This document shows positions 5,954 through 21,580 of a stretch of 64,000 bases of DNA, one piece after another. This DNA is from Roseibium marinum. Its GTDB lineage: Bacteria > Pseudomonadota > Alphaproteobacteria > Rhizobiales > Stappiaceae. The DNA lies in contig NZ_PPCN01000002.1 in NCBI RefSeq assembly GCF_002906165.1, positions 124,001-188,000 of the forward strand. The letters are read 5' to 3'. How positions within the stretch are numbered: position 1 is the stretch's first letter; every line of letters starts with the position of its first letter. Below the pieces are notes generated by a model. That model had not been told where the DNA came from. It worked only from the letters and a program-made list of their open reading frames with translations, and made no database searches. The translations under genes and the position numbers were made by a program.

Positions 5954-8900
5954 CTAGAACCGCGCCGAGAAACTGGCGGTGAAGCCGTGGTCCTGGGCGT
6001 TGGCGCCGATATCGCCCTGGTAGCCGATGTCGAATCGGCCGACCTTGCCGAAGTCGAGCTTGACACCGGCCTCGATCAGCGCCGTGTCGCGGTCGATCGG
6101 GCTGCCTGAGACCGTAAAGGCGCTGCCGCCGTCAAGACGCATGGCTGTGTCCGGGGTGACATCGCCTATCGCGTGGCGCCAGCCGAGCGCACCGGCGAGT
6201 GACGCGGTCATGTCGCCAATGACGGCGAATTGCCTTTCGGCCCGTGCGCCCAGGGTCGTGACGCCGAGCGTCTGCGCGGTGGAGGAGACGGTAAGCGCCG
6301 CGGTACCGCCGGTCTCGGTGAAGCCGTCGCTGCGCTGGTGAATGAGCGCGAGGCCCGCAAAAGGCTCGAACCGCGCCAATTGCGTATCCATCGTGTAGCC
6401 GACCTCGCCGAAGGCCTGCGCGGTCGGGGCGGCATATTTGGCGGTAAGATGGTCGGTGAAGGCGCCGACGGTGACGTTCCGGGTCGTGCCGACATCATGC
6501 CATGTGTAAGTGGTGCCAAGCCGTACACCGAGCGGGCCGAACTGGCGCCCGGTATAGGCGCCAAGCGTGTAACTGTCGGCGTTGCCGGATGACGCGCGGG
6601 CATCGACATCGAAGCTGCTGTGGCCGTAGCCGGCGAGCACGCCGGCGCGCCAGCCGCCGAAAAGCTCGGCATCGGCGCCCATGAAGAAGCCGCCGGTGCT
6701 GCGGTCGGCGCCAGCCGTATTGGCGGTGGCGTCCGTCGACCCCCAGGCGCCATATCCCTGCCCCCAGGCCACCACGCCGCCACTGATCCCCGGCGTTTCG
6801 CCTTTGCCGTTAAAGGCGATCTGCGGCATCTCGCCGGCGGCCACGCCGTCGAAGGCGCCACGAATACGGTTGCCGATGGTGTCGCGTCCGAATTGACTGT
6901 CAGCGGCGAGCGCGCCGTGCACCGTTCCATGCACTTCGCCCGACAGCGCATCCAGCGCCTCGCGAGCCCCGGCGTCGGTCAGACCTATGAATGCGTCATA
7001 GACCGCATTGCCCGCGGTCAGGCCACCAACCCCCGCCGCAGTCGCGCGCTGGTTCGCGGTGTTCGCCGCCGAAGCGAAGTTGGTTTCATTGCGCGTCAGT
7101 GTCAAAGTGACGTTATTGGCGTCATAGCCGAGCATGGCATCGAGGAAGGCGAAGCTGTCGCTGACCGAGCCGAAGGTGCCGTTGACCGCAGTATCGGCGG
7201 TGAGGATCGTGTAGGTTGTGTCGGTGGCATAGGTGGAACCGGTGTCGGTGCCGTTTTCAGGACCCACGGTCACGCTCGCGCCGTTGTTGATTGTCACCGT
7301 ACCGGTGGCGTGCAGCAAGTCGGAGTTTCCGGCGGCATCGACTTCCACCGCATAGATGGAACCGGACGCGAAGCTGGCATCTCCGGACACGTTCAACGTG
7401 CCGATGGAATTGCCCGGCGCGATGGTGCCCCCGGAATTCGCGCTCACCATGCCGACCGTGCCCGAACCGCCTAACGTGCCGCCACTGGCGATCGTGATCG
7501 CCGAGGAACTGACGATCGAACCGTTCACGAAGAGTGTGCCGCCATTCACGGTGGTTGCGCCTGTATAGCTGCTGGTGCCCGTGAGATTTAGCGTCCCTGT
7601 ACCGGTTTTCGTGAGTGACAGTACGCCCGCTCCATCCTGTAAGGTTCCGGAAAAGGTGGTGTCTGCGTTGTTGAAATCCGTCGTCAGCACCGCCGCGGTG
7701 GCGTTTCCATTGGTTATGCTGCCGCTGCCGGAGAGTGATGGGAGCGTCGAGTCAAAACCGTTGACATCGAAAGTGGCACCCGCCGCAACCGTAACGGCGC
7801 TGGTGGATGCCAAGGCCGTCGCGGATCCCATGCGCAGGATGCCGGCATTGACGTCGGTCGAACCTGTGTAGGTATTGGTGGCCGTGAGAAGCAGGGTTCC
7901 GTCACCCGCCTTTTCCAGACTGCCCGATGATGCGCCGTCGGCAATGACACCCTGCAGCGTTGTCGTGGTGCCGCTGGCGACGTCGATCGCGGACGAACCG
8001 GCGAGGCTGAATCCCCGGCCGGAAGCCATCGTCGTGGTGCCGGTCACGGCGAGCGTTCCACCGTCCGAGATCACCACGTCGTTAGCTACGTCGCCAAGGT
8101 TGGCAGTACCGGCGATCGACAAATTGCCGCCGGCGATAGTGACGTTGCCTGTGAAGGTATTGGCCGCGGACAACACCAGGTTTCCGGTGCCGGTCTTGTT
8201 AATGGCTGTGGTAACGGATCCGGCAGTCCGACCGGTACCGGCGATGGTGTTGGCATAGGTGACCGTGCCGGAGGACACGCCTATGTTTACGGTCGTGGTG
8301 TCGATGAAGATCCCGGCACCCGCGGTGCTGCCGGTGCTGCCGGTCAAGCCGCCTGCTGCTGATGACCCCTGACCGGTGCCGCCGCCGCCGCCTGCGCCAC
8401 CGGTGACTGCCGCGCCGGAGATCGGCGTGTCGAGGATGGTCAGTGTGCCGCCGGTCGCTACATAAATCGCGCCGCCCCGCCCGCCACCGCCGTCACCGCC
8501 GTTACCACCATCCGAGCCGGGTCCAAACGAGCCAGCGTTGTTGGTAACAGCGCCGCGGCCCGAGTTGCCTTCACCCCCGCCTGCATTGCCCGCCCCGCCA
8601 TCGTTTCTGTCCGTATAACCTGAGCTGCCGGTCGTGCCGGAGCCGCCGCCGCCGCCGCCGCCGTCACCCACCGACGCGCCGCTGCTGCCCACCGTGCCCG
8701 ATGTACCGGTATTGCCGCCTTCGCCGCCGGCCCCGCCGCCGCCGACGGCGCCGCCGGCGTTCATCGCGCCGCCGTCACCACCATCGCCACCGGACGCACT
8801 GGCCGCGATATTCTGCGCCGAGCCGCCATTGCCACCAGTGCCGCCCGTAGCGGAATTGCCCGTGAAGGTGACCGATGAGAGCGTGACATCGGCGCCACTG

Positions 8901-9400
8901 CCGACCAGAAGGCCACCGCCGCCGCCAAGGCCACCGCCGCCGCCGCCGCCGGAGCCGTAGGAAAGCGCGGAGCTGTAATAACCATCCTGTCCAGCCTCGC
9001 CGTTGCCGCCAACGACCGCCGTATTGGCGACCGAGAGGTTGGAGATGTTGACGGTCGGCGCATTGGCGCCGTTGACCTGGATACCCTGGAAAGACGACGC
9101 GCCATCGATCACCTGGCTGTTGCCGGTGATGTTCACGGTGACGTTCGCGTTGCTTGCCTGCAGGCCAGCCAGTGAACTGGTGAGTGTGAAGCCGCTGGTG
9201 ATGTTGATGCTGACGGCAGAGCCGGAACCGGCTGCCGCAACAGCCGCGACCGCGGTGTTCCAATCGGTCTGGCTGGAGACGTCGATGGCCTGCGCCTCGG
9301 TGACAAGCAGAACGCCGAGGCTTGCGAAGACCGCACCAAACAGTGCGCCACGCGAACGATGTGCCGGGTCGGTGTCCGGGAGTTTCTTGTGCAGTGTCAT
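5954..9400 (-). CDS. Autotransporter (type Va) with Gly-rich passenger and C-terminal beta-barrel
   Basis: A 1148-residue outer-membrane protein from the ATG at 9400. The start is followed by a positively charged stretch and a hydrophobic core (FGAVFASLGVLLVTEAQA), a typical Sec signal peptide; in-frame codons up to 9574 have no signal-like character. The passenger begins with a region of parallel beta-helix type, then an extremely Gly-rich, low-complexity segment, then repeats of the autotransporter-associated strand type (GTGNLVLSAANTFTGNVTI, GTLLLTATNTYTGSTDV, GTLNLTGTSSYTGATTV). The last ~270 residues form an autotransporter barrel ending in the outer-membrane signature SARF. It probably presents or releases a surface adhesin-like passenger. 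An IS abuts its stop codon. A response-regulator/kinase pair lies upstream and may control it (inference). Confidence 0.9.
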   Translation of the reverse strand: MTLHKKLPDTDPAHRSRGALFGAVFASLGVLLVTEAQAIDVSSQTDWNTAVAAVAAAGSGSAVSINITSGFTLTSSLAGLQASNANVTVNITGNSQVIDGASSFQGIQVNGANAPTVNISNLSVANTAVVGGNGEAGQDGYYSSALSYGSGGGGGGGLGGGGGLLVGSGADVTLSSVTFTGNSATGGTGGNGGSAQNIAASASGGDGGDGGAMNAGGAVGGGGAGGEGGNTGTSGTVGSSGASVGDGGGGGGGSGTTGSSGYTDRNDGGAGNAGGGEGNSGRGAVTNNAGSFGPGSDGGNGGDGGGGRGGAIYVATGGTLTILDTPISGAAVTGGAGGGGGTGQGSSAAGGLTGSTGSTAGAGIFIDTTTVNIGVSSGTVTYANTIAGTGRTAGSVTTAINKTGTGNLVLSAANTFTGNVTIAGGNLSIAGTANLGDVANDVVISDGGTLAVTGTTTMASGRGFSLAGSSAIDVASGTTTTLQGVIADGASSGSLEKAGDGTLLLTATNTYTGSTDVNAGILRMGSATALASTSAVTVAAGATFDVNGFDSTLPSLSGSGSITNGNATAAVLTTDFNNADTTFSGTLQDGAGVLSLTKTGTGTLNLTGTSSYTGATTVNGGTLFVNGSIVSSSAITIASGGTLGGSGTVGMVSANSGGTIAPGNSIGTLNVSGDASFASGSIYAVEVDAAGNSDLLHATGTVTINNGASVTVGPENGTDTGSTYATDTTYTILTADTAVNGTFGSVSDSFAFLDAMLGYDANNVTLTLTRNETNFASAANTANQRATAAGVGGLTAGNAVYDAFIGLTDAGAREALDALSGEVHGTVHGALAADSQFGRDTIGNRIRGAFDGVAAGEMPQIAFNGKGETPGISGGVVAWGQGYGAWGSTDATANTAGADRSTGGFFMGADAELFGGWRAGVLAGYGHSSFDVDARASSGNADSYTLGAYTGRQFGPLGVRLGTTYTWHDVGTTRNVTVGAFTDHLTAKYAAPTAQAFGEVGYTMDTQLARFEPFAGLALIHQRSDGFTETGGTAALTVSSTAQTLGVTTLGARAERQFAVIGDMTASLAGALGWRHAIGDVTPDTAMRLDGGSAFTVSGSPIDRDTALIEAGVKLDFGKVGRFDIGYQGDIGANAQDHGFTASFSARF

Positions 9401-9851
9401 TTCATCGTCCGAATTGTCATGTGGAGAAGATAATTTGCTCTGAGCCGGAAGCGGCGCTTTTCGGCGGTCGACCGTGGCAAGGCACGATCGCCGAACCGGA
9501 ACTCCGAATGGAATTGGCAGTCCTGAACCGGGCACGCCGGAATCACGCTGCGCCATTGTGATTGTCAGCCTCACATCGCCGCCGAAGCGCGTCGGAACAT
9601 CCTGAAAGCGACTGGCCGGGTGTTGCCGATAGGGCGGTGGAGGCCGGCGGTGCTTCCGAGTTCAGTCTCAATTCCCTTAATGTCGACAGTCTCATTTCCA
9701 CACACCCTTCTGGGTGCCGGCTTTTCCGGCTCTGCCCTTGAGCCGTCCGGCAAACACCTGAATTGAATTTCAGTAACAGGCGAGGTGCCGCGCTTCCCTG
9801 AAATAACAAGTTAAAACAAGATCTAATGTAGATAGTTATATAAATCCTAAG

Positions 9852-10085: not shown

Positions 10086-10805
10086 TCAGCCGCGTCCGGC
10101 AATAACGGCGATCATCGAAAACCCGACGCCCTGGACGGTGCTGATCGGGAGGCTCAAGTCCGTGTGGCTGAGCGTTTTGGCGCGCAGGCGGCACAGCATG
10201 GAGTCCAGCTTGCGATAGGAGGAAGCGGAGGTATCGTCGCCCAGCGTGGCGATGATGTCGCCACGGCTGATGACGATGTCCCGGGAATGCACGACATGAT
10301 CAACGAACATGGCCTCGCGGCGGGTCAGGCGCACCGAGCGGCCGTTGGGCGAGGTGAGTTCCAGGTTGGTGGAGGAATAGGACCAGCCTGGCATTTCACC
10401 GGTGGTGGCCGTGTCGGTTCCAGGGATAGGGGCTGTACGCGATACGCATCTCTTCAGCACAAGACCACTGATGGCGGCGGAAAGCTCTTCCGGCTCTACC
10501 GGCTTGGTCATGTAGATGTCCGCACCGCTCTGGTAGCCGCGCACCCGGTCCTCCAGGCTCGCGCGCACGGTGGTGATGATGATGCCCGTATCGGCCTGAT
10601 CGGAAAGGTATCGGGTGATCGAATACCCGTCGTAATGCGGCAGATTGATATCGACGACGACGACATCGAAGGACTTGTCCGCCATCAGCTGATAGAGTTC
10701 GACGGCGCTGCCGGCCTCGGCAACGGTGTGCCCCAGCAGGACCAGACAATCGGCCATGCTCTCGCGCAGCGCAACGTCATCTTCTACCAACATCACCTCA
10801 GCCAT
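10086..10805 (-). CDS. OmpR-type response regulator
   Basis: A 239-residue protein from ATG 10805 (MAEVMLVEDD). The receiver domain has the acidic pair ED (8-9), phospho-acceptor Asp52 (VVVVDINLPHYDG), Thr at TTVRA and the conserved Lys in MTKPVEPEEL. Residues ~145-235 form a winged-helix DNA-binding domain of the trans_reg_C type: RLTRREAMFVDHVV, YRKLDSMLCRLRAK and TVQGVGFSM align with the recognition-helix and wing regions. An in-frame upstream start (10841) would add a 12-residue tail unlike receiver N-termini. The gene is divergent from the kinase gene at 10884, with 78 bp between them, so they probably form a regulatory pair. The autotransporter downstream is a likely target (inference). 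Confidence 0.9.
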   Translation of the reverse strand: MAEVMLVEDDVALRESMADCLVLLGHTVAEAGSAVELYQLMADKSFDVVVVDINLPHYDGYSITRYLSDQADTGIIITTVRASLEDRVRGYQSGADIYMTKPVEPEELSAAISGLVLKRCVSRTAPIPGTDTATTGEMPGWSYSSTNLELTSPNGRSVRLTRREAMFVDHVVHSRDIVISRGDIIATLGDDTSASSYRKLDSMLCRLRAKTLSHTDLSLPISTVQGVGFSMIAVIAGRG

Positions 10806-10883
10806 GGGACCAGCACGCTCGCCTGACAATTTGCTTACCAAACATGTCTATCGAGAGCCTATGTACTTTAAACAGGGACAGGA

Positions 10884-12983
10884 ATGCAATTGTCCCACGA
10901 TCAAGGCAGCAGCATGCGGCGCTTATTCCGTCCTGTACCAACCGTCGTTGATATTACACGAAGTCTCCTGTTTTTCACCGCGGTGCTTTTTGCCTCGAAC
11001 GTCACCTCGATTTGGCAATTGGAGGCGGCCGCCGGGCAACTTCCTGCCATCGGCGCCGGGCCGGAGTTCGCATCCGCGTCCCTGACCGGCCGCATGTCGG
11101 TTCTGCGCGATCCCGACCATGCGATCTCGCTTGCCGATGTCGCCTTTGGCGCCGCGGGTCAGGCCATGCATCCGGCAAGCGGCAACATCGCGCTTGGCTA
11201 TACGCAGGACGCGCTGTGGGTGAAGTTTTCGCTCAAACGCGACCGCGCATGGCCGCTCAGCCTGTTTCTCAATCTGATACCCACCTATCTCGACCGGGTG
11301 GATGTCTATGTCGCGCGGGTGGCCCACCCTGCGTCCGTCGATGATTTCGAACTGCTGCGGCTGGGCGACCATGTTCCCTCCGCCGAGCGCGCGATATTCG
11401 TACCCTCGCTCGTTGCGGAACTGACGCTGCCCGACGCCGACCTGACCGATATTTACATGCGTATGGAGACGACCAGCAACTTGGCGCTGCGGGGATGGGT
11501 TCTTTCCGGGGCGTCGATGCTGAATGTCGCGACCCAGGAAAGCATCAAACTCGGTGCGATCCTGTCGTTTTTCATCATTCTGGCGATCATTCACCTCTAC
11601 TATTTCTTCTTTCTGCGCAAACGATTGTATTTTTCCTTCAGCGCCTTCCTGGTCGCTTTGGCTTCGGTGTTTCTGTTCGACAGCGGACTGATCACCGACG
11701 GCCCCATGTTGGGGGTCTATTACGCCAGCGATCTGTACCTGGGCTGCACCATGATCATCGCGCAGCTGACAAGCTATGTATTCATGATCGATCAGCTTGA
11801 GGCCAGGGCACGCTTCCCGATACTCTATCGCGGCCTGCAGGGCATGATCGCGCTATATGCCTTTGTTCTGGTCGCAGCCATCGCCGGCTATGGCAGCACC
11901 GTCATCCCCCCGGCGCTCGCGCTCTCCACAAGCTGGATCCTGCTGGTTTCCGTCTACAATGTGATCCTGTACCGGCGCAAAAGGCCGGGCAGCGGATTGG
12001 CCACCATGGCCTATCTGATCCTGCTGGCGGGTTTTGTCGCGACCGCCGGGCGCCTGTCGGGACTGTTGCCCTTCGCCACCGCCACCGAACATGCTTTTCT
12101 GGCGGGCGTCGTCCTGTTCATCTTTTTCATGAACCTGTCGCTGTTGCAGCGGGCGCGACTGGCCGAGCAGAGAAGACGCGAAAGTCAGGCGCTGCAGGTG
12201 TCGCGCAAGGCGGAAAAAGCAGCTATGCGCCTGGTGAAAATCCGCACCGCCGAGTTGGAGACGGCAAAGGAAGAGGCCGAAACGGCTCTGGCGCATGAGC
12301 GCGCCGCCCAGGCCGAACAGCTGCGCTTCGTGGATGTGGTCACCCACCAGTATCAAACGCCGCTCGCCGTGATCCGCTCAAGTATCGCGGCCATTCTTCA
12401 AACACTTGCGCCGCAGGATGAGGGCAATCGTCAGCGGGTCAGCCAGATACGTTCCGCGGTCAAGCGGCTGATCGAGGTGCTGGACGTGTCGCTGCATCGC
12501 AGCCGTGTGGACGGCAGCACCGCCAAGGCGAACTTGCAGGATGTGGAGCTTGTCCCGACGTTGGAGGGGATTGTCGGACGAAACCGTGAACTGTCGCCCG
12601 AAAGCGGTCTTGAGATCGAATTCCAGTCGATCGGGGCACATGACAGGGGCCGGATAGATCCCGACATGCTCGGTCTGGCGCTGACCAACCTGATCGACAA
12701 TGCCGTCAAGTTCTCTGCCGCGGGCAAGCCCGTCAGGATGCGCTGCCGGCGGCAGGACGGCTCCCTCGTCATCGAAGTGGCCGATGAAGGTATCGGTATT
12801 CCCGAAGCGGAGCGGGAGGATATTTCCAAACGTTATTTTCGCGCTTCCAATACCGGCGGCATTCCCGGTACCGGATTGGGCCTGCACATCGTCAGGGCCG
12901 TTGCGGCCGCCCACGGCGGCACCTTTGCCATCGCCAATGGCGATCAAGGCGGCGTTGTCACGGCACTCACCATCCCGGCGTGA
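10884..12983 (+). CDS. 7TM (DISM-type) sensor histidine kinase
   Basis: A 699-residue membrane kinase. Residues ~22-50 contain a signal-anchor-like hydrophobic stretch. Residues ~65-210 form a periplasmic 7TMR-DISM extracellular beta domain (GYTQDALWVKFSLKR). About seven hydrophobic segments follow between ~220 and 420, the 7TMR-DISM membrane module. A coiled coil (~425-480) leads to the HisKA domain with phospho-acceptor His488 in an unusual H-box, VVTHQYQTPLAVI, in place of SHELRTP. The ATPase domain shows the N-box NLIDNAVKFS, G1 box ADEGIGIP and G2 GTGLGLHIV. Such DISM sensors often bind carbohydrate or other small ligands. It is divergent from the OmpR-type regulator gene and is its probable partner. 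Confidence 0.9.
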   Translation: MQLSHDQGSSMRRLFRPVPTVVDITRSLLFFTAVLFASNVTSIWQLEAAAGQLPAIGAGPEFASASLTGRMSVLRDPDHAISLADVAFGAAGQAMHPASGNIALGYTQDALWVKFSLKRDRAWPLSLFLNLIPTYLDRVDVYVARVAHPASVDDFELLRLGDHVPSAERAIFVPSLVAELTLPDADLTDIYMRMETTSNLALRGWVLSGASMLNVATQESIKLGAILSFFIILAIIHLYYFFFLRKRLYFSFSAFLVALASVFLFDSGLITDGPMLGVYYASDLYLGCTMIIAQLTSYVFMIDQLEARARFPILYRGLQGMIALYAFVLVAAIAGYGSTVIPPALALSTSWILLVSVYNVILYRRKRPGSGLATMAYLILLAGFVATAGRLSGLLPFATATEHAFLAGVVLFIFFMNLSLLQRARLAEQRRRESQALQVSRKAEKAAMRLVKIRTAELETAKEEAETALAHERAAQAEQLRFVDVVTHQYQTPLAVIRSSIAAILQTLAPQDEGNRQRVSQIRSAVKRLIEVLDVSLHRSRVDGSTAKANLQDVELVPTLEGIVGRNRELSPESGLEIEFQSIGAHDRGRIDPDMLGLALTNLIDNAVKFSAAGKPVRMRCRRQDGSLVIEVADEGIGIPEAEREDISKRYFRASNTGGIPGTGLGLHIVRAVAAAHGGTFAIANGDQGGVVTALTIPA

Positions 12984-13100: not shown

Positions 13101-14879
13101 CTAGATCACGTCGAAGACATGATCGAGCAGCATGATACCCAGGCATCCAGACGGACTGAGCGTCTGGGCGCTCAGCAGGTGCCCGCCGATGGTCGCCGCG
13201 GCCACTTCCGGTTTCGTGCCTTCCGGAACGTTGTTGATGTTCTGAACCGTCAGATAGACATCCCACTTGCCGGGCTTCGACGTCGCCGGAATGCGCACGG
13301 ACCCCTTGAAGCAGCACTGACGGGCCTTTGCCGCATTCACCTTGATCCGCGCTTCCAGCGCATCCTTCAGGATCGCCTCGAGCTGCTCCTTGGGAAGATC
13401 GATCCGGAACTCGCCTTCCCGGTCGAGGCCGTCAACGCAATATTCGACAAGGACCGCCTCGCCGCCGCCACCGAGGACCTGCGTTGAGGAAATGCCATTG
13501 CCCTTGACGGTCAGCGTGTGAACGACGCCTTGCGTTCCGTCCGTCGCATCCTCGCCCACCAGCACGCCGCCGGCGAAGGCCCTCAGCCTGACCGGCTGAC
13601 TTGTGTATTGAACGACTTTGATCCGGACCTCGGAGACAGGCTGGTGACTGAACTGGATGCCGCGCGACGGCAGCAACAACCCCTTTGCAAGTTCGCCCCA
13701 GGACACGATCGACATATTCTGCTGCTGGGGCTGCAGATACCCGAGCCAGTCGAACCTTCCCTTGTAGACAACTTCCTGGTTTTCCATCTCGAAGAAGCGG
13801 ATGCAATCCAGTTCGCCGTCGCCAGTCCCGCCGAAGGGATCCTCGTCGCACGGAACCGGCTGAAGGATCGAGCGCACGGCCGTGGACGGCTTGTCATGGG
13901 GGATCATATGCGCGACGACGTGATAGTCGTTGCAGGTGCGCGCCAGCTGATAATCCCAGATCGAGGCGAAGATTTCCGCCCGCTCGCCCGGATTGTAGCC
14001 GGGCTTGTCGGTGACGACCTGCTTGCCGAGCAGGAACTGGGCGTTCGCGACCTTCTCGCGTTCCTCGTGAACCATGACCCGCTGGTCGGTTTCCCGTTCA
14101 TAGCGCCAGATCGTCTCGGCGCGGAACGGATATCCCGGCAGCGGCAGATCGTAGTAGAGGATCTCGTTCGAAACCCGCTCGCGCAGGGTCTTTTCCCCGG
14201 CGGGGGGGACCGTCGCGTCCTGGCCGCGGCGGGTCTGGTCCTTGTAGTCGGAGCAGGCCGCCGCAATCGCCGCTGCCGCCGCGCCGCCATAGAGGATAGC
14301 CGCGATGGGATCGGGGCTTTCCCATTCGATCAGCGACGTGACCAGCGGCCCGCAGGCAAGGACCTTCCCGATTGCCTCCACATGGTCGCCGCCGGTCGGG
14401 TGCCCGGGCTGGATGATCTGATCCCCAGCCGAACCGCCATCGGCCCACACATGCCAGTTCGACAACCCGACAGGAGCGCCCGTCACATTGTCGGTCCCTA
14501 AAATGCCGAGCGTGCCGCCGCCGTTGAACCACAGCACGTGCTGCTCGGAATTCGAGGACGCCGGGCCGCCGAGAAGAGGGTCGTATTTGCGCTCATCGCG
14601 CTGACCCACGGAGCCGCTGACGTAGTTTTCATCGCGGACATCGGTCGGAAAGCCGTCGATCTCCTTTGGAATCGGCTTCGAGCCCTTCGCTTCGATGACC
14701 CGTTCGGAGGGCAGTTTTTCCTGGACGTGAAACAGGATCGCCAATCCGTCCCGAGGCTTGCCGCCGCGTTCGGGAGACCCGAACCCGATGGCAACCACAT
14801 TGGGGTCGTCGGCATACTCTGCGCGCAAACGGCGCACGCTGGCCTGAATACGGGCAACGGTTTCGTTGATTTCAACCAT
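13101..14879 (-). CDS. Trypsin-like protease N-lobe protein (His half of a split protease)
   Basis: A 592-residue protein. Residues ~1-90 carry the leader typical of bacterial trypsin-like peptidases of the Nal1-like type (DDPNVVAIGFG, AILFHVQEKLP, IPKEIDGFPTDV). Residues ~117-178 form the N-terminal lobe: GGTLGILGTD, then the catalytic-His motif GLSNWHVW with His143, then GDQIIQPGHPTGGD and EAIGKV. At that point the fold is interrupted by a hydrophobic Ala-rich stretch (~192-209). No catalytic Asp strand and no GDSG motif follow. Residues ~230-592 are a different, largely beta-stranded Cys-containing region of unknown type. The missing C-lobe is found at the end of the upstream gene product (14895-16757). 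The gene starts 15 bp after that gene, with ribosome site GGAGGG, so both are one operon. Confidence 0.75.
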   Translation of the reverse strand: MVEINETVARIQASVRRLRAEYADDPNVVAIGFGSPERGGKPRDGLAILFHVQEKLPSERVIEAKGSKPIPKEIDGFPTDVRDENYVSGSVGQRDERKYDPLLGGPASSNSEQHVLWFNGGGTLGILGTDNVTGAPVGLSNWHVWADGGSAGDQIIQPGHPTGGDHVEAIGKVLACGPLVTSLIEWESPDPIAAILYGGAAAAAIAAACSDYKDQTRRGQDATVPPAGEKTLRERVSNEILYYDLPLPGYPFRAETIWRYERETDQRVMVHEEREKVANAQFLLGKQVVTDKPGYNPGERAEIFASIWDYQLARTCNDYHVVAHMIPHDKPSTAVRSILQPVPCDEDPFGGTGDGELDCIRFFEMENQEVVYKGRFDWLGYLQPQQQNMSIVSWGELAKGLLLPSRGIQFSHQPVSEVRIKVVQYTSQPVRLRAFAGGVLVGEDATDGTQGVVHTLTVKGNGISSTQVLGGGGEAVLVEYCVDGLDREGEFRIDLPKEQLEAILKDALEARIKVNAAKARQCCFKGSVRIPATSKPGKWDVYLTVQNINNVPEGTKPEVAAATIGGHLLSAQTLSPSGCLGIMLLDHVFDVI

Positions 14880-14894
14880 TTCTCATGCCCTCCG

Positions 14895-16757
14895 TCAGAT
14901 TGTGATGTTAAGGATGCGCTGCACGTCTTCGAGCAGCGAAGCGATGCTGAAGTTACCCGACCCGTCGGCGGCACCGGAGTGGTGCAACCCGACCGGACGC
15001 AATGTCTCGGTGTGTATCCAGACCGATCCGGAATCACCTTTCTGGCTTGTCGGCTCATCGAACGCAGGATCACGAGTGATCTGCAGCTGATCGATGCTCC
15101 AAGCGGCTTCCGAATGCCCGGTCGGAGACAGCCCGGATATGATCCCGTGGGTGAACCCGGTCGTCGCACCGGACTTGAAGACCTTGCGCTGCGGGTCGTC
15201 AATCGGCAGCACCAGCAGGTTGCTGACTTCGGCATGGGTCATCACGTTGCCGGTGACCGCGGTGACCATGCCGTTCAGGGCGGTCAGCGGGTTCAGGAAG
15301 TCCTCATCGCCCTGCGCGTCGAGAACCGTGTTCATCGCCAGCGCCCGGTCCGTATCGATCACGCACAGCGCCGCGTCGATATCGTCCTGCTGGAAAGCTC
15401 CCAATGTGCCGATGACATTGTCTTCGTCCTGATAGGCAATGTCGGCGGCTTCGGCGATCATGCCCGCGATCAGGAGGATAACGGCAATGATGATCAGCAG
15501 CACCTTCCACCACGGATCGTCATAAGGCAGAGGCCCGTACTGGCCGTCGAAAGGTTCGGACGGCGTCACGGTGTAGTCGAACTTGGTGGGAAAGGCGAGG
15601 AAGGGCGGATATTGCCATTTCCCGTCGCCGGGAAACCTCGGATCGCGACCGCCGCCCCAGGGATCGGTGGGATCGTATCCGCCGCCGCCCGGAAAGCCCG
15701 GCAGATCCCTGCAACTGCAGTAGCAGGTAAGCAGCTTCTGGATCAGGCAGGGATCGATGTCTTTGCCCTTCAGAAGCGCCTCGAGCGCACGGCGAAGGTC
15801 CCGGGCACCGGGATTGCGCCGCCGGCCTCCGCGTCGCGGCTTCTCTCCTCCACCCTTTCCGTCGGAACCGTCCAGGCGCCTGCGCTTTTTCTTGGCGGTG
15901 ACACGGTCGATGGCGACCTCGCGCAGTTGCACGCGGATTTCACCTTCCTGCACCTCCGAAACGATCTGGCCTGTGGTCTCGTCGATATAGGAAGAGGAAA
16001 CGAATATCTGTTTGGTCTTGAACCGGCGCGGATCGCCGGGATCCGCCATGCCGGCACGGTTGGTCACGGAGAAGGTGATGTCGTGCTTGCGTGGCGACGC
16101 TTCGCGCACATCGATCTTGAAATAGAACACTCGGGAGCGATCCGGTTCCAGTCCTTCAAGGCTGATACCGGTTCCCGACAGCTTCTGGCCCAGCATATCG
16201 AGTTCGCGCTGGGTGAAGCTGTCGATGACATCGATACCGCGCGCGGTAAGCTGCGCCCGGCTTTGCGGCGTGATATCGATAGCGTGATCGGGTCCGAAGG
16301 CGAGCCCCCAGTGGTTTTCCACCCGAACGCCCATGTAATAGACACCGATCGCCGTCTCGAAAATGCCGTCGGGCATTTGCCCGAGATCGAGAATACGCAC
16401 CGCGAACGGCCTGACAGGGATGTCGAAGAGCGTGTCCCCCTGCCAGCGCGCGTCCCATTCGATGTCCTCGAAGTCGAGTTGCGGCAGCGGATCTTCCGCT
16501 CCGATGGTCGCCCTGATGTCGATACGGTCTGGCGCCGCATCGATCATCATGTCCGATTCCGCCCACGGCTCGCCGGCATTCTCGCGGTATTCGGCCCGCA
16601 ATTGCCAGTGTACGCCGTCTATGACCTTGGCCGGTCCGACGACGCCGTCAAATGTGCCGCCACCCGAGGACGCCCCGTCGATCACATACCGGTTTTCCCA
16701 GTTGTGTATCGCCTTGACGACCTCAAGCCGCCATTTCCCGTATAAATTGATTGCCAT
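14895..16757 (-). CDS. Trypsin-like protease C-lobe protein (Asp/Ser half of a split protease), membrane-anchored
   Basis: A 620-residue protein from ATG 16757, chosen because GGAGG lies 6 nt upstream. Residues ~1-290 are unknown beta-rich sequence. Residues ~290-320 are a very basic Lys/Arg/Gly linker, followed by a Cys cluster (Cys337, 345, 347, 349) and a Gly/Pro-rich segment. One strong transmembrane helix lies at ~416-435 (WKVLLIIIAVILLIAGMIAEA). After it comes the C-terminal lobe of a trypsin-like protease: NVIGTLGAF, then DDIDAALCVID with probable catalytic Asp461, KSGATTGFTHGIISG, and the nucleophile motif KGDSGSVW with Ser576, then PVGLHHSG. No catalytic-His segment is present. The complementary His lobe is encoded by the next gene in the operon. 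First gene of the pair. Confidence 0.75.
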   Translation of the reverse strand: MAINLYGKWRLEVVKAIHNWENRYVIDGASSGGGTFDGVVGPAKVIDGVHWQLRAEYRENAGEPWAESDMMIDAAPDRIDIRATIGAEDPLPQLDFEDIEWDARWQGDTLFDIPVRPFAVRILDLGQMPDGIFETAIGVYYMGVRVENHWGLAFGPDHAIDITPQSRAQLTARGIDVIDSFTQRELDMLGQKLSGTGISLEGLEPDRSRVFYFKIDVREASPRKHDITFSVTNRAGMADPGDPRRFKTKQIFVSSSYIDETTGQIVSEVQEGEIRVQLREVAIDRVTAKKKRRRLDGSDGKGGGEKPRRGGRRRNPGARDLRRALEALLKGKDIDPCLIQKLLTCYCSCRDLPGFPGGGGYDPTDPWGGGRDPRFPGDGKWQYPPFLAFPTKFDYTVTPSEPFDGQYGPLPYDDPWWKVLLIIIAVILLIAGMIAEAADIAYQDEDNVIGTLGAFQQDDIDAALCVIDTDRALAMNTVLDAQGDEDFLNPLTALNGMVTAVTGNVMTHAEVSNLLVLPIDDPQRKVFKSGATTGFTHGIISGLSPTGHSEAAWSIDQLQITRDPAFDEPTSQKGDSGSVWIHTETLRPVGLHHSGAADGSGNFSIASLLEDVQRILNITI

Positions 16758-17476: not shown

Positions 17477-18217
17477 TCACCCCGCCTCGTTCACCACCAG
17501 CTGCATCCGGTCCGCCGCCACGCGCGCCCTTGTGTACTGGATGGGGCGGCCTTCCATGTCGAGATTGACGCTTTCCATGACCATGACGGGCTGGCCCAGC
17601 GCCAGGCCGAGCTGGCGGGCGTCATTGGCCTCGACGAGTTCGGCGGTGATGCGGGTTTCCTTGCGCCGGTAGTCGGTGATCCCGGCGCGTTTCAGGGCCG
17701 TGGTGATGGAGCCGCTGTCGGCGTAGTCGGTGACGAAATTCGGCACGCGCGTCTGGTCGAACCAGCCCGTGGCGATGATCATCGGCACGCCGTCGGCAAC
17801 GCGCAGGGTTTCCACCCGCAGCAGCGCGGTGCCGAGCGGTACGTCGAGGCGATTGGCGAGCAGCGCGTCGGCCTCCTCGGACGCCGAGCCGATGAGGCGG
17901 CCGTCCGGCGCCCGGTCCTGGCCCGAGACGATTTCCGAAAACCGCGTCCTCGGTCCGATCGGATAGCTGAGCGGCGCTGAGGCGACGAAGGTGCCGCGGC
18001 CCTGGTCGGCGCGCAGGATGCCTTCGCCCGTCAGCGCGGCGATGGCGCGGCGCACGGTGTGGCGGTTGACGCCGAAGCGGGCGGCCAGCTCGGATTCCGG
18101 CGGCAGACGGCTGCCTTTACCGAAAGCACCACTGACGATCTCGGCCTTGAGCGTTTCCATGATCTGCCGCCAGACGGCGATGCCCGCGCCGCGATCGAGA
18201 GTGCTGTGGTTCGTCAT
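17477..18217 (-). CDS. phnF: GntR/HutC-family repressor of phosphonate utilisation
   Basis: A 246-residue regulator from ATG 18217 (MTNHSTLDRGAG). Residues ~10-75 are a GntR winged helix: WRQIMETLKAEIVSGAFG, KGSRLPPESELAARFGVNRHTVRRAIAAL (given here by blocks) and GRGTFV. Residues ~95-240 are a UTRA (HutC-type) ligand-binding domain, with LGTALLRVETLRVADGVPM and MEGRPIQYTRARVAADRM. It is divergent from phnGHIJKL and separated by 150 bp that contain a PhnF-like operator, which identifies it as PhnF. It likely represses the C-P lyase operon and itself, releasing on binding a phosphate or phosphonate-derived ligand (family knowledge). Confidence 0.93.
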   Translation of the reverse strand: MTNHSTLDRGAGIAVWRQIMETLKAEIVSGAFGKGSRLPPESELAARFGVNRHTVRRAIAALTGEGILRADQGRGTFVASAPLSYPIGPRTRFSEIVSGQDRAPDGRLIGSASEEADALLANRLDVPLGTALLRVETLRVADGVPMIIATGWFDQTRVPNFVTDYADSGSITTALKRAGITDYRRKETRITAELVEANDARQLGLALGQPVMVMESVNLDMEGRPIQYTRARVAADRMQLVVNEAG

Positions 18218-18259
18218 GCGCCCGTCATCAAATTTCGCTACCAAAGAGTCAATCGGATT

Positions 18260-18275
18260 ATTTGTATAGACAAAT
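18260..18275. promoter_or_regulatory. PhnF-type operator ATTTGT-ATAG-ACAAAT
   Basis: A perfect 6-4-6 inverted repeat in the phnF-phnG divergent region. Its core TATAGAC with flanking symmetric bases matches the known mycobacterial PhnF site (TGGTATAGACCA). A second AGACAAAT half-site follows directly, making an overlapping tandem. It is 43 bp from the phnF start and 94 bp from the phnG start. Confidence 0.75.
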
Positions 18276-18368
18276 AGACAAATCAAAGCTAGAGACTCCG
18301 CATAAATCGCGATCCCGTCCAACGATCGCCAAATGTCCCGACGACCGCCCAGTTCCAAAAGGCGCTTC

Positions 18369-18845
18369 ATGACCGAAACCACATTCGACGACCGGACCGG
18401 GGATGCCGCTGAGGGCGACCGGAAGAAAATCATGGCGACACTGGCGGCGGCCACGCCGGAAGCCATTGCCGGGAAATATGAAAACCTCTCCCCGCCTTCC
18501 TTCGAACTCGTACGCCAGCCCGAGACCGGCCTGGTCATGGTGCGCGGCCGCATGGGCGGCACCGGCAGCCCGTTCAATCTGGGCGAAGTCACCGTGACCC
18601 GCTGCGTCGTGCGTCTGGAGACCGGCGAAACCGGCAGCGCCTACAGCCTCGGCCGCAACAAGAAGAAGGCCTTGCATTCTGCGGTGATCGACGCACTCTG
18701 GCAACGCCCGGAAACACGTGCGCGGATCGAAAACGACATTATCGCTCCGCTCGCCGCCGCGCAGGAAACCGCCAAGGAGACGGTCCGGCAGGAAACCGGG
18801 GCGACAAGGGTCGACTTTTTCACCATGGTGCGGGGAGACAACTGA
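18369..18845 (+). CDS. phnG: Phosphonate C-P lyase system subunit PhnG
   Basis: A 158-residue subunit of the C-P lyase core complex. Start ATG 18369 (MTETTFDD) fits the family better than the upstream in-frame start. Conserved blocks are the helical N-terminus, PETGLVMVRGRMGGTGSPFNLGE (around residues 50-72), TRCVVRL and AYSLGRNKKKALHSAVIDAL. With PhnH, PhnI and PhnJ it forms the cytoplasmic (GHIJ)2 complex that attaches phosphonate to the ribose of ATP and cleaves the C-P bond. First gene of phnGHIJKL, overlapping phnH by ATGA (18842-18845 region), so translation is coupled. Probably controlled by PhnF. Confidence 0.95.
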   Translation: MTETTFDDRTGDAAEGDRKKIMATLAAATPEAIAGKYENLSPPSFELVRQPETGLVMVRGRMGGTGSPFNLGEVTVTRCVVRLETGETGSAYSLGRNKKKALHSAVIDALWQRPETRARIENDIIAPLAAAQETAKETVRQETGATRVDFFTMVRGDN

Positions 18846-19501
18846 TGACGACCGCTCCCGAGACAAATGCAACGCAGGAAAGCCGGAAAACCCCGGCGAC
18901 ACCACCGCTCGCAGCCGGGTTTCAGGACCCGGTTCACGACGCCCAGGCCTGCTTCCGGGCCGCAATGAACGCCATCGCCCGTCCGGGCACCCGGCAGGCG
19001 GTTGACGCGGGTGGCCTCACCCCGCCAGCACCGCTGACACCCGTTGCGGCGGCGCTCGCGCTGACCCTCCTCGACTACGACACGCCCGTCTGGCTCGACA
19101 AGCCGCTGATGGCGTCCGACGCGGTCAAGGCCTTCCTGCGCTTCCACACCGGAGCGCCGATCGTCAGCGAACCGGTGGAGGCCGCCTTCGCGCTGGTCGG
19201 CAATCCGGGGCAGATGATCCCCCTGGCAAGTTTCAACCAGGGCTCAGCCGAATATCCGGACCGCTCGGCAACCGTCATCCTTCTGGGCCAGGACTTCGGC
19301 GCGGTGCAGGCGGTAACCCTGCAAGGACCCGGCATTCAGGACAGCGCGGCTTTTTCGGTCAGCCCTGTTCCCCCCGTGTTCTGGGAGCAGGTTGCCGCCA
19401 ACAGCCGGCAGTTCCCGCGCGGGATCGACCTGATATTCGCCGGGGATGCGGAAATTGCCGCGCTTCCCCGGTCCACCCGCATCATGCCGACGGAGGTCTG
19501 A
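18845..19501 (+). CDS. phnH: Phosphonate C-P lyase system subunit PhnH
   Basis: A 218-residue PhnH. Recognisable blocks are GFQDPVHDAQACFRAAMNAI, RPGTRQAV, LALTLLDYDTPVWL and GSAEYPDRSATVI, and the C-terminal FPRGIDLIFAG. PhnH is a PLP-transferase-like fold without catalytic function and belongs to the C-P lyase core complex. Its ATG overlaps the phnG stop by one base. A 4-bp gap separates it from phnI. Length is slightly above E. coli PhnH (194) because of a variable N-terminal extension rich in Thr/Pro. Confidence 0.95.
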   Translation: MTTAPETNATQESRKTPATPPLAAGFQDPVHDAQACFRAAMNAIARPGTRQAVDAGGLTPPAPLTPVAAALALTLLDYDTPVWLDKPLMASDAVKAFLRFHTGAPIVSEPVEAAFALVGNPGQMIPLASFNQGSAEYPDRSATVILLGQDFGAVQAVTLQGPGIQDSAAFSVSPVPPVFWEQVAANSRQFPRGIDLIFAGDAEIAALPRSTRIMPTEV

Positions 19502-19505
19502 CGCC

Positions 19506-20627
19506 ATGTATGTTGCCGTCAAGGGTGGCGAAAAGGCCATCCGCAACGCCCACAAACTCACGGCGAAGCGCCGCAGGGGCGACACCTCCGTTCCGGCGCT
19601 GACGCTGGAGCAGATCGCCCAGCAGCTGTCGCATTCGGTCGCGCGGGTGATGGGCGAAGGCTCGCTCTACGACGAAACGCTGGCCGCTCTGGCGATCAAG
19701 CAGGCGCGCGGCGACCTGATCGAGGCAGCGTTCCTGATGCGCGCCTACCGCACCACACTGCCGCGCTTCGGCTACAGCACGCCGGTCGATACCGGCGCCA
19801 TGCTGGTCGAGCGCCGTGTCTCGGCCACCTACAAGGATCTTCCGGGCGGCCAGGTTCTGGGCCCCACCTTCGACTACAGCCACCGCCTGCTCGACTTTGC
19901 TCTTGCCGCGGAAGACGACGGCGCGCAGCTACCTGTCGAAACGGCACAAAGCGAAGACCGGCCCATGCCGCGCGTCACCGACCTGCTGGGCGACGAGGGC
20001 CTGATGGAACCGGATCCCGTCACCGACGAGGACGCCCCTGTCGGCGACCTGACCCGCGAGCCGCTGTCCTTTCCCGCCGACCGGGACCTGAGGCTGCAGA
20101 ACCTTGCCCGCGGCGACGAAGGCTTTCTGCTGGCGCTCGCCTATTCCACCCAGCGCGGCTACGGCCGCACGCATCCCTTCGCCGGTGAAATCCGCTATGG
20201 CGAGGTCGAAGTGGAATTCTTCGCCGAGGAGCTCGGGTTCGCCGTCACGCTCGGCGCCATCAAGGTCACCGAGTGCCAGATGGTCAACCAGTTCGCAGGC
20301 TCCGCCCAGGCCGCCCCGACCTTCACGCGCGGCTACGGACTTGTCTTCGGCCAGGTGGAGCGCAAGGCCATGTCGATGGCGATGGTCGACCGGTCGATGC
20401 GCTGGCAGGAGCTTGGCGAGGAACAGGTCGCGCCTGCGCAGGACATCGAATTCGTCCTGTCCCATTCAGACAACATCCAGGCGACGGGTTTTGTCGAGCA
20501 CCTGAAACTGCCGCATTACGTCGATTTCCAGGCCGAGCTCGACCTGGTGCGCCGCATGCGCGCCGAATGGTTCGGCAGACGCGAACAGCAGGAAGAAGGC
20601 GAAGCCGCCACGGAGGCCGCGCAATGA
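19506..20627 (+). CDS. phnI: Phosphonate C-P lyase system subunit PhnI
   Basis: A 373-residue PhnI, catalysing with PhnG, H and L the transfer of phosphonate to the anomeric carbon of ATP ribose with release of adenine. Start ATG 19506 gives the family N-terminus MYVAVKGGEKAI. Conserved segments are EQIAQQLSHSVARVMGEGSLYDE, LIEAAFLMRAYRTTLPR, and the C-terminal ATGFVEHLKLPHYVDFQAELD (shown in part). Overlaps phnJ by 4 bp (ATGA). The acidic Glu-rich tail (EEGEAATEAAQ) is variable in the family. Confidence 0.95.
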   Translation: MYVAVKGGEKAIRNAHKLTAKRRRGDTSVPALTLEQIAQQLSHSVARVMGEGSLYDETLAALAIKQARGDLIEAAFLMRAYRTTLPRFGYSTPVDTGAMLVERRVSATYKDLPGGQVLGPTFDYSHRLLDFALAAEDDGAQLPVETAQSEDRPMPRVTDLLGDEGLMEPDPVTDEDAPVGDLTREPLSFPADRDLRLQNLARGDEGFLLALAYSTQRGYGRTHPFAGEIRYGEVEVEFFAEELGFAVTLGAIKVTECQMVNQFAGSAQAAPTFTRGYGLVFGQVERKAMSMAMVDRSMRWQELGEEQVAPAQDIEFVLSHSDNIQATGFVEHLKLPHYVDFQAELDLVRRMRAEWFGRREQQEEGEAATEAAQ

Positions 20628-21580
20628 CCGATACGGCACAAATCCCGGACAGCGTTTATGAGCAGGGCGAATACAATTTCGCCTATCTGGACGAACAGAC
20701 CAAACGCATGATCCGCCGCGCGATCCTCAAGGGCATCGCCATTCCCGGCTATCAGGTGCCCTTCGCCTCCCGCGAGATGCCGATGCCCTATGGCTGGGGC
20801 ACCGGCGGTGTGCAAGTGACGGCGGCAATCCTCGGGCGGGACGATTGCCTGAAGATGATCGACCAGGGGTCCGACGACACCACCAACGCTGTCTCCCTGC
20901 GCGGCTTTTTCGAAAAGACCGCCGAGGTCAGGACGACCTGCGAGACGGCGGAGGCCACCATCATCCAGACCCGCCACCGCATTCCGGAAAAGCCCCTGAC
21001 CGGGGATCAGATCCTGGTGTTTCAGGTGCCGATCCCCGAACCCCTGCGCTTTCTGGAACCGCGCGAGACCGAGACCCGCAAGATGCACGCGCTGGAGGAT
21101 TACGGGCTCATGCATGTGAAGCTCTACGAGGACATCGCCAAAAACGGCCATATCGCCACCACCTATGCCTATCCGGTCAAGGTCAACGACCGCTATGTGA
21201 TGGACCCCTCGCCGACGCCGAAATTCGACAATCCGAAGATCGACCGGATGGCCGCGCTGCAGCTCTACGGCGCGGGCCGGGAAAAACGCATCTACGCCAT
21301 ACCGCCCTATACGAAGGTCAAGAGCCTCGATTTCGAGGATTATCCCTTCGAGATCCAGAAATTCGACAAGCCCTGCGGCCTGTGCGGCGCGGAAAACGTC
21401 TATCTCGACGAGGTCATCCTCGATGACAGGGGCGGGCGCATGTTCGTCTGTTCCGACAGCGACTATTGCGAGGAACGCCGCGCGGACGGTCATCTCGGAC
21501 CGATGGCGGCGGATCCGGCGGCCGCCCGTATCAGCAGTACCGGCATCGATGGCGCGAAAACCGGGGAGACAGTCCGATGA
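20624..21580 (+). CDS. phnJ: Phosphonate C-P lyase PhnJ (radical SAM, C-P bond cleavage)
   Basis: A 318-residue C-P lyase that cleaves 5-phosphoribosyl-1-phosphonate. The iron-sulfur cysteines are intact: Cys251 and Cys254 (KPCGLCGAE), Cys276 (FVCSD) and Cys282 (DYCEE), with the same spacing as Cys241, 244, 266 and 272 of E. coli. The 10-residue offset reflects a longer N-terminus. Other signature blocks are FAYLDEQTKRMIRRA, PYGWGTGGVQVTAA and GSDDTTNAVSLRGFF. ATGA overlaps on both sides (phnI and phnK) show tight coupling. All residues expected for activity are present. Confidence 0.97.
   Translation: MTDTAQIPDSVYEQGEYNFAYLDEQTKRMIRRAILKGIAIPGYQVPFASREMPMPYGWGTGGVQVTAAILGRDDCLKMIDQGSDDTTNAVSLRGFFEKTAEVRTTCETAEATIIQTRHRIPEKPLTGDQILVFQVPIPEPLRFLEPRETETRKMHALEDYGLMHVKLYEDIAKNGHIATTYAYPVKVNDRYVMDPSPTPKFDNPKIDRMAALQLYGAGREKRIYAIPPYTKVKSLDFEDYPFEIQKFDKPCGLCGAENVYLDEVILDDRGGRMFVCSDSDYCEERRADGHLGPMAADPAAARISSTGIDGAKTGETVR

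Follow-up and report, generated by a model that had tools for sequence, protein, structure and literature searches.

The window analyzed here is a 64,000-nucleotide stretch of the Roseibium marinum contig NZ_PPCN01000002.1 (positions 124,001 to 188,000), and within it we examined two neighboring minus-strand genes, at 16757-14895 and then 14879-13101, whose products are predicted, on the best reading, to form a composite two-chain protease. The upstream, C-half gene (14895..16757; coding part 14898-16757, stop TGA at 14895-14897) encodes a 620-amino-acid (aa) protein, P0001, and the downstream, N-half gene (13101..14879; coding part from 13104, stop at 13101-13103) encodes a 592-aa protein, P0002. 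The genes are in the same reading frame and are separated by 15 bases. Each has its own ATG preceded by a GGAGG-type sequence, with a ribosome-site-like GGAGGG at 14888..14893 within the gap ahead of the N-half gene. A first-pass annotation had proposed that a trypsin-like protease is split between these genes in reversed order, and by sequence its coordinates, lengths, gene order, and residue assignments are correct.

P0001 begins with a beta-rich domain without a Pfam match (residues 1-290; 15888..16757), which has predicted local distance difference test (pLDDT) scores mostly of 75-95 in a joined model of the two chains that begins at P0001 residue 21. A hydrophobic segment at residues 419-437 (15447..15503), identified by hydropathy and modeled as a helix at pLDDT <50, lies just ahead of the protease C-half (residues 446-620; 14898..15422), which by profile comparison comprises the last barrel 1 strands and barrel 2. 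The motifs following this helix are, in order, IGTL (residues 449-452), DIDAALC with Asp461 (codon 15375..15377), KSGATTG, and KGDSGS with Ser576 (codon 15030..15032). P0002 opens with the protease N-half (residues 1-188; 14316..14879), consisting of a NAL1_N-like segment, resembling the N terminus of NARROW LEAF 1 (NAL1), and the first barrel 1 strands. This segment is followed by GTLG, SNWHV with His143 (codon 14451..14453), GDQIIQP, and IGKV (14361..14372), the break-point strand as it occurs in the N chain and the counterpart of IGTL in P0001. Beyond the break are an Ala-rich segment that is hydrophobic by hydropathy (residues 192-210; 14250..14306), a middle region that is beta-rich in the secondary structure of the joined model (residues 226-352; 13824..14204), and a carbohydrate-binding-module-like jelly-roll domain (residues 354-487; 13419..13820). 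Of 47 N-half relatives, 35 show a weak MG2 (macroglobulin-type) signal (best E 1.7e-5), which is below the cut-off in P0002. In one N-half protein of 747 aa (P0134), the jelly-roll domain occurs twice in tandem by reading. L041 and L042 also show a match to the jelly-roll module, detached from the protease, and match only this part of the N-half chain.

Protein searches returned 149 relatives of P0001 and 138 of P0002, and 120 of each, among the matches listed, were used. Alignments of 122 (C-half) and 121 (N-half) rows combined the window protein, the other listed matches, and a Methylocystis plasmid pair. Sources of both proteins among the matches listed included Cellulomonas, Streptomyces, Archangium, Saprospirales, and the haloarchaeon Salinigranum. 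Nostoc appeared among the C-half sources, and a Thorarchaeota bin solely among those of the N-half. Listed members of both families, where named, were called only "hypothetical" or "uncharacterized."

The three putative catalytic residues are conserved across these families. All 121 N-half rows have H at His143. At Asp461, 121 rows have D and 1 has a gap (121/121 rows with a residue), and at Ser576, 119 rows have S, 1 has T, and 2 have gaps (119/120 rows with a residue). The exceptions at Ser576 are P0094, which has T and a C terminus that reads like an out-of-frame translation, P0111, which stops before the site, and P0120, which is short. P0001 contains Asp461 and Ser576 and lacks a catalytic-His segment, and P0002 contains His143 and lacks the Asp strand and GDSG. 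A motif scan with a position check found the whole triad in no single protein among the listed relatives of either half. Of the 120 listed N-half proteins, 3 contain G[DN]SG strings, located within the jelly roll (residues 407-461), and of the 121 listed C-half proteins, 7 contain N.HV strings, located at residues 144-257, distant from the protease half. The His-Asp-Ser triad required in the PA clan is present solely when the two chains are taken together.

Searches of the window's genome with each family profile found the pair and one more place, which was the same single reading frame for both profiles. This single-chain relative matched positions 4-162 of the N-half profile (E 1.3e-16) and then positions 501-595 of the C-half profile (E 3.4e-10). 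Both profiles matched eight single open reading frames (L017, L020, L021, L023, L024, L037, L040, and L045), with the N-half match first in each. Six others (L022, L043, L044, and L046-L048) were matched by the N-half profile alone, over its protease region, and L036, complete by reading, was matched only by the C-half profile. When 11 single-chain proteins were aligned to the two families with hhalign, the N-half matched at 99.7% (E 1e-26) and the C-half at 98.7% (E 2.5e-16), and the two nearly non-overlapping matches met at the IGxL strand. One of the 11, L040, passes the Pfam cut-offs of both NAL1_N and Nal1_C, and comparison of the N-half family with solved structures found rice NAL1 (E 0.0085). 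Trypsin_2 (PF13365) or HtrA-type matches were not listed for P0001 or P0002 at E values up to 10. PF13365 was found in seven places in the window's genome, all on other contigs. Since the single-chain relatives match the N-half and then the C-half in one frame, P0001 and P0002 tile one protease, and sequence comparison indicates that they are homologous to different halves of one trypsin-like protease.

Some single-chain relatives are associated with nucleases. In L020 and L023, a single-chain NAL1-like protease and a DNA/RNA non-specific endonuclease (PF01223, E 4.8e-41 and 1.9e-43) form one fusion protein, and five plasmid matches (H3-H7) carry the same endonuclease product name. In G090, the small single-chain protease L036 adjoins a gene that by eye reads like a DNA/RNA non-specific endonuclease. 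L022 (1465-3282) is a close relative of the L020 fusion that is missing the GDSG stretch, with the remainder in frame, and its protease part would therefore be dead.

In trypsin-like folds, the Asp strand is part of barrel 1. Because the Asp strand here goes with the Ser half, barrel 1 itself is divided, and the cut runs inside barrel 1 rather than at the inter-lobe linker. The first-pass annotation had described a break at the same point in both proteins, between the two lobes. The shared break point stands, as the same IGxL/IGKV strand motif occurs in both chains, but the placement at a lobe boundary does not. The annotation had also described a hydrophobic segment at the break in each protein, which holds strongly for the C-half protein only. 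The P0001 segment has a mean Kyte-Doolittle value of 2.94, with values of ≥1.6 in 120 of 121 relatives (among the matches listed plus the plasmid pair), whereas the P0002 segment is weak, with a value of 1.84 and ≥1.6 in only 44 of 121 relatives. From hydropathy, which is weak in the N-half chain, assembly of a composite protease at the membrane is possible.

The pair is present in ten distinct genomes including that of the window, spanning four phyla among the named ones, and in 10/10 the genes are adjacent in the order C-half and then N-half. The other nine genomes (L008-L013, G062, G136, and the Methylocystis plasmid; G049 is the same genome as L008, with the same contig and coordinates) were found via the N-half protein or profile, and a C-half gene was directly upstream in 9/9, with L008-L013 checked genome-wide. 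The two genes are in the same frame in five of the ten loci (window, L008, L050, L011, and L052) and out of frame in the other five (L009, L010, L012, L013, and L049). Of 87 genomes from the host's family, 3 carry a full-length N-half gene, as do 2 of 145 in the order of an Archangium, 1 of 297 in the order of a Cellulomonas, and 1 of 395 in the class to which a Bacteroidota bin belongs. Full-length C-half genes were found in exactly the same 7 genomes of these four groups, 4 of the 7 being centers of the group searches, with thresholds of 1e-3 to 1e-30 and part of the first-look candidates scored. Across the 924 genomes covered by both profile searches, no full-length copy of either gene occurred apart from the other. 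At least 59 of the 120 listed C-half proteins come from sources whose longest contig is identical in length to that of a listed N-half protein, a lower bound, as clustering and the extent of the list hide partners. In the genomes examined, the genes show the co-occurrence that the first-pass annotation had proposed to check.

We analyzed covariation between the chains with corrected mutual information for all variable column pairs between P0001-type and P0002-type proteins. The set contained 53 contig-matched pairs plus the window pair (54 in total; effective number, 39), with 6 of the 59 matched pairs left out as ambiguous, short, or carrying a duplicated domain. Of the 50 highest-ranking column pairs, 26 fell in the C-half by N-half quadrant, as did 46 of the 100 highest, whereas the quadrant's share of all pairs would predict 4.6 and 9.1. 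With entropy-matched columns, the counts were 18/50 and 32/100. The only other quadrant enriched more than twofold in the top 50 was the C-chain helix by the N-half, with 3 pairs versus 0.8 expected. Under random re-pairing across all rows, in two runs of six, the C-half by N-half quadrant averaged 3.8 and 5.5 of 50. Exchanging partners inside each of 15 close clusters left the signal in place (mean, 31/50; 6 shuffles), and doing so inside 9 or 6 broader clusters abolished it (1.7 and 1.8 of 50; 6 shuffles each). Because the two halves also neighbor each other on the DNA, we compared column pairs at matched codon distance. At 180-360 codons apart, top pairs occurred at rates of 36-54 per 10,000 within the quadrant (35 pairs) versus 6-12 outside (16 pairs), and there was no distance trend inside the quadrant (r -0.04). 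The signal might conceivably stem from a block of shared history that begins and ends precisely at the domain borders.

As the window genes are in frame, both chains were modeled jointly as a read-through translation. A Foldseek search with a 380-aa model of the two halves only gave NAL1 as the best match (E 5.2e-4).

These observations support a model, to which we assign a probability of about 0.78, in which the C-half and N-half chains are predicted to join into one NAL1-like trypsin-fold serine protease with a composite His143/Asp461/Ser576 site. The two chains would complete barrel 1 jointly, and a single chain would not fold into an active enzyme by itself, so that activity would be conditional on the presence of both proteins. 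The heterodimeric protease proposed by the first-pass annotation is thereby partly supported, by the half-homology, the triad residues in trans, co-occurrence, and covariation. Regarding origin, a single-chain gene may have been tandemly duplicated, with the first copy losing its N-half and the second its C-half, which would account for the reversed gene order as well as for the presence of the IGxL strand in each chain. In trees with only 11 and 10 single-chain rows, long branches, and no known root, and with the Methylocystis pair left out, the split N-halves form one side of a branch with support of 100/99 (in 100% of bootstrap trees), and the split C-halves form one side of a branch with support of 87/92 (88%). 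One split event is the simplest reading of these sequence trees. Taken together, it is probable, if with less assurance than the joining of the chains, that this is a naturally split trypsin-fold protease of bacteria and archaea, cut through barrel 1, with a triad completed only when the two separately encoded chains meet and an origin in tandem duplication and reciprocal loss.

Several observations weigh against a composite protease of this kind. P0001 and P0002 pass no Pfam or NCBIfam cut-off, including those of NAL1_N and Nal1_C, and a PADLOC match is absent for both. Their relatives gave weak Pfam matches only, with NAL1_N in 2 of 47 (best E 0.072) and Nal1_C in 2 of 47 (best E 0.03). The full joined model of 1198 aa, with the other domains, reached a pLDDT of 72 and a predicted template modeling score (pTM) of 0.56, and the model of the halves only reached 74 and 0.63, values of only moderate confidence that fall short of a confident interface. 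The loss of signal on broad-cluster swaps indicates that the covariation reflects between-subfamily differences and thus few independent events. Neither N terminus is signal-peptide-like by eye and one chain has a likely membrane helix, which leaves unexplained how both chains would meet on one side of the membrane. The support in the C-half tree is under the usual threshold, and long branches meet there.

We weighed three other explanations. The best surviving is that the chains join into a scaffold or binding protein without catalytic activity, with the protease fold retained, consistent with the carbohydrate-binding-like and other beta domains attached to the chains and with the existence of trypsin-like pseudoprotease scaffolds such as PflC of the Campylobacter flagellar motor, which lacks the triad (PMC12222027). 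Since PflC lost its triad, whereas the three triad residues and GDSGS are kept in nearly all relatives here, we regard this explanation as unlikely. Less likely still is that the halves do not pair, each acting alone or partnered with a single-chain relative that the cell also encodes. Such a relative does exist beside the pair in the window's genome and in G049, and the join is modeled at moderate confidence only, but G062 holds the pair with no single-chain match at an E of 0.001, full-length genes were never apart in the 924 genomes, and covariation concentrates on the two halves. An artefact in which a frameshift, a stop, or misassembly disrupts one ordinary protease gene, although compatible with the shared frame in half of the loci, is ruled out for practical purposes by the conservation of the arrangement, with C-half-first order, separate domains and starts for each gene, recurrence in ten genomes, and five pairs out of frame, in agreement with the earlier argument from reversed order.

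Relative to known systems, NAL1 and the single-chain bacterial NAL1-like proteases share with the window pair SN.HV-, D.A-, and GDSG-type motifs at corresponding positions. NAL1 is one chain read N to C, whereas the window pair consists of two genes, C-half then N-half, with extra domains on each. In the engineered split TEV protease, a trypsin-fold protease is reassembled from two fragments. That split is man-made, whereas the split of the window pair is natural and widespread. In flavivirus NS2B-NS3 (PMC3918146), NS2B is a second polypeptide with hydrophobic helices that adds strands to the barrels of the chymotrypsin-like NS3. There, the whole triad is in NS3 and NS2B supplies strands only, in contrast to the triad of the window pair, which is split over two chains. 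The heterodimeric M16B peptidases (MPP, SPH2681/2682, and TTHA1264/1265) also need two chains per enzyme, some encoded by neighboring bacterial genes, but these are metallopeptidases (PMC12731061) with two clam-shell halves, each a multi-domain subunit, and not one two-barrel fold cut in two. Among the papers listed by searches of an open-access library for split or two-gene serine proteases, none described a natural split trypsin-like protease, subscription papers being outside that scope.

The genes surrounding the pair vary. On one side are neighbors common to the window (17477-21580) and L008 that by eye we take to be phosphonate-type genes, and on the other side the neighbors differ between the window and L008 and, by eye, are unrelated in L050. 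The pair therefore occupies differing places within one genus. In the window, a minus-strand response regulator gene diverges from a plus-strand 7TMR-DISM histidine kinase gene (10089-12980), next to a large open reading frame that is autotransporter-like by eye (5954-9574). The most divergent pair seen (L052; ~30% identity) is on plasmid pMpar-2 of Methylocystis parvus, where it is flanked within ~10 kb by TniQ, TniB, and Mu-type transposase genes and, on the opposite side, by a methanobactin gene.

The original observation is right and more general than one sequence could show. If one active site is formed from two chains, this would be a natural and widespread chymotrypsin-type enzyme that needs two gene products. 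Barrel 1 would then be completable in trans, and the pair would be a ready-made conditional protease and a test case for the passage from a single-chain enzyme to an obligate heterodimer with reversed gene order. These results also provide functions to test for two protein families with no informative names among their listed members.
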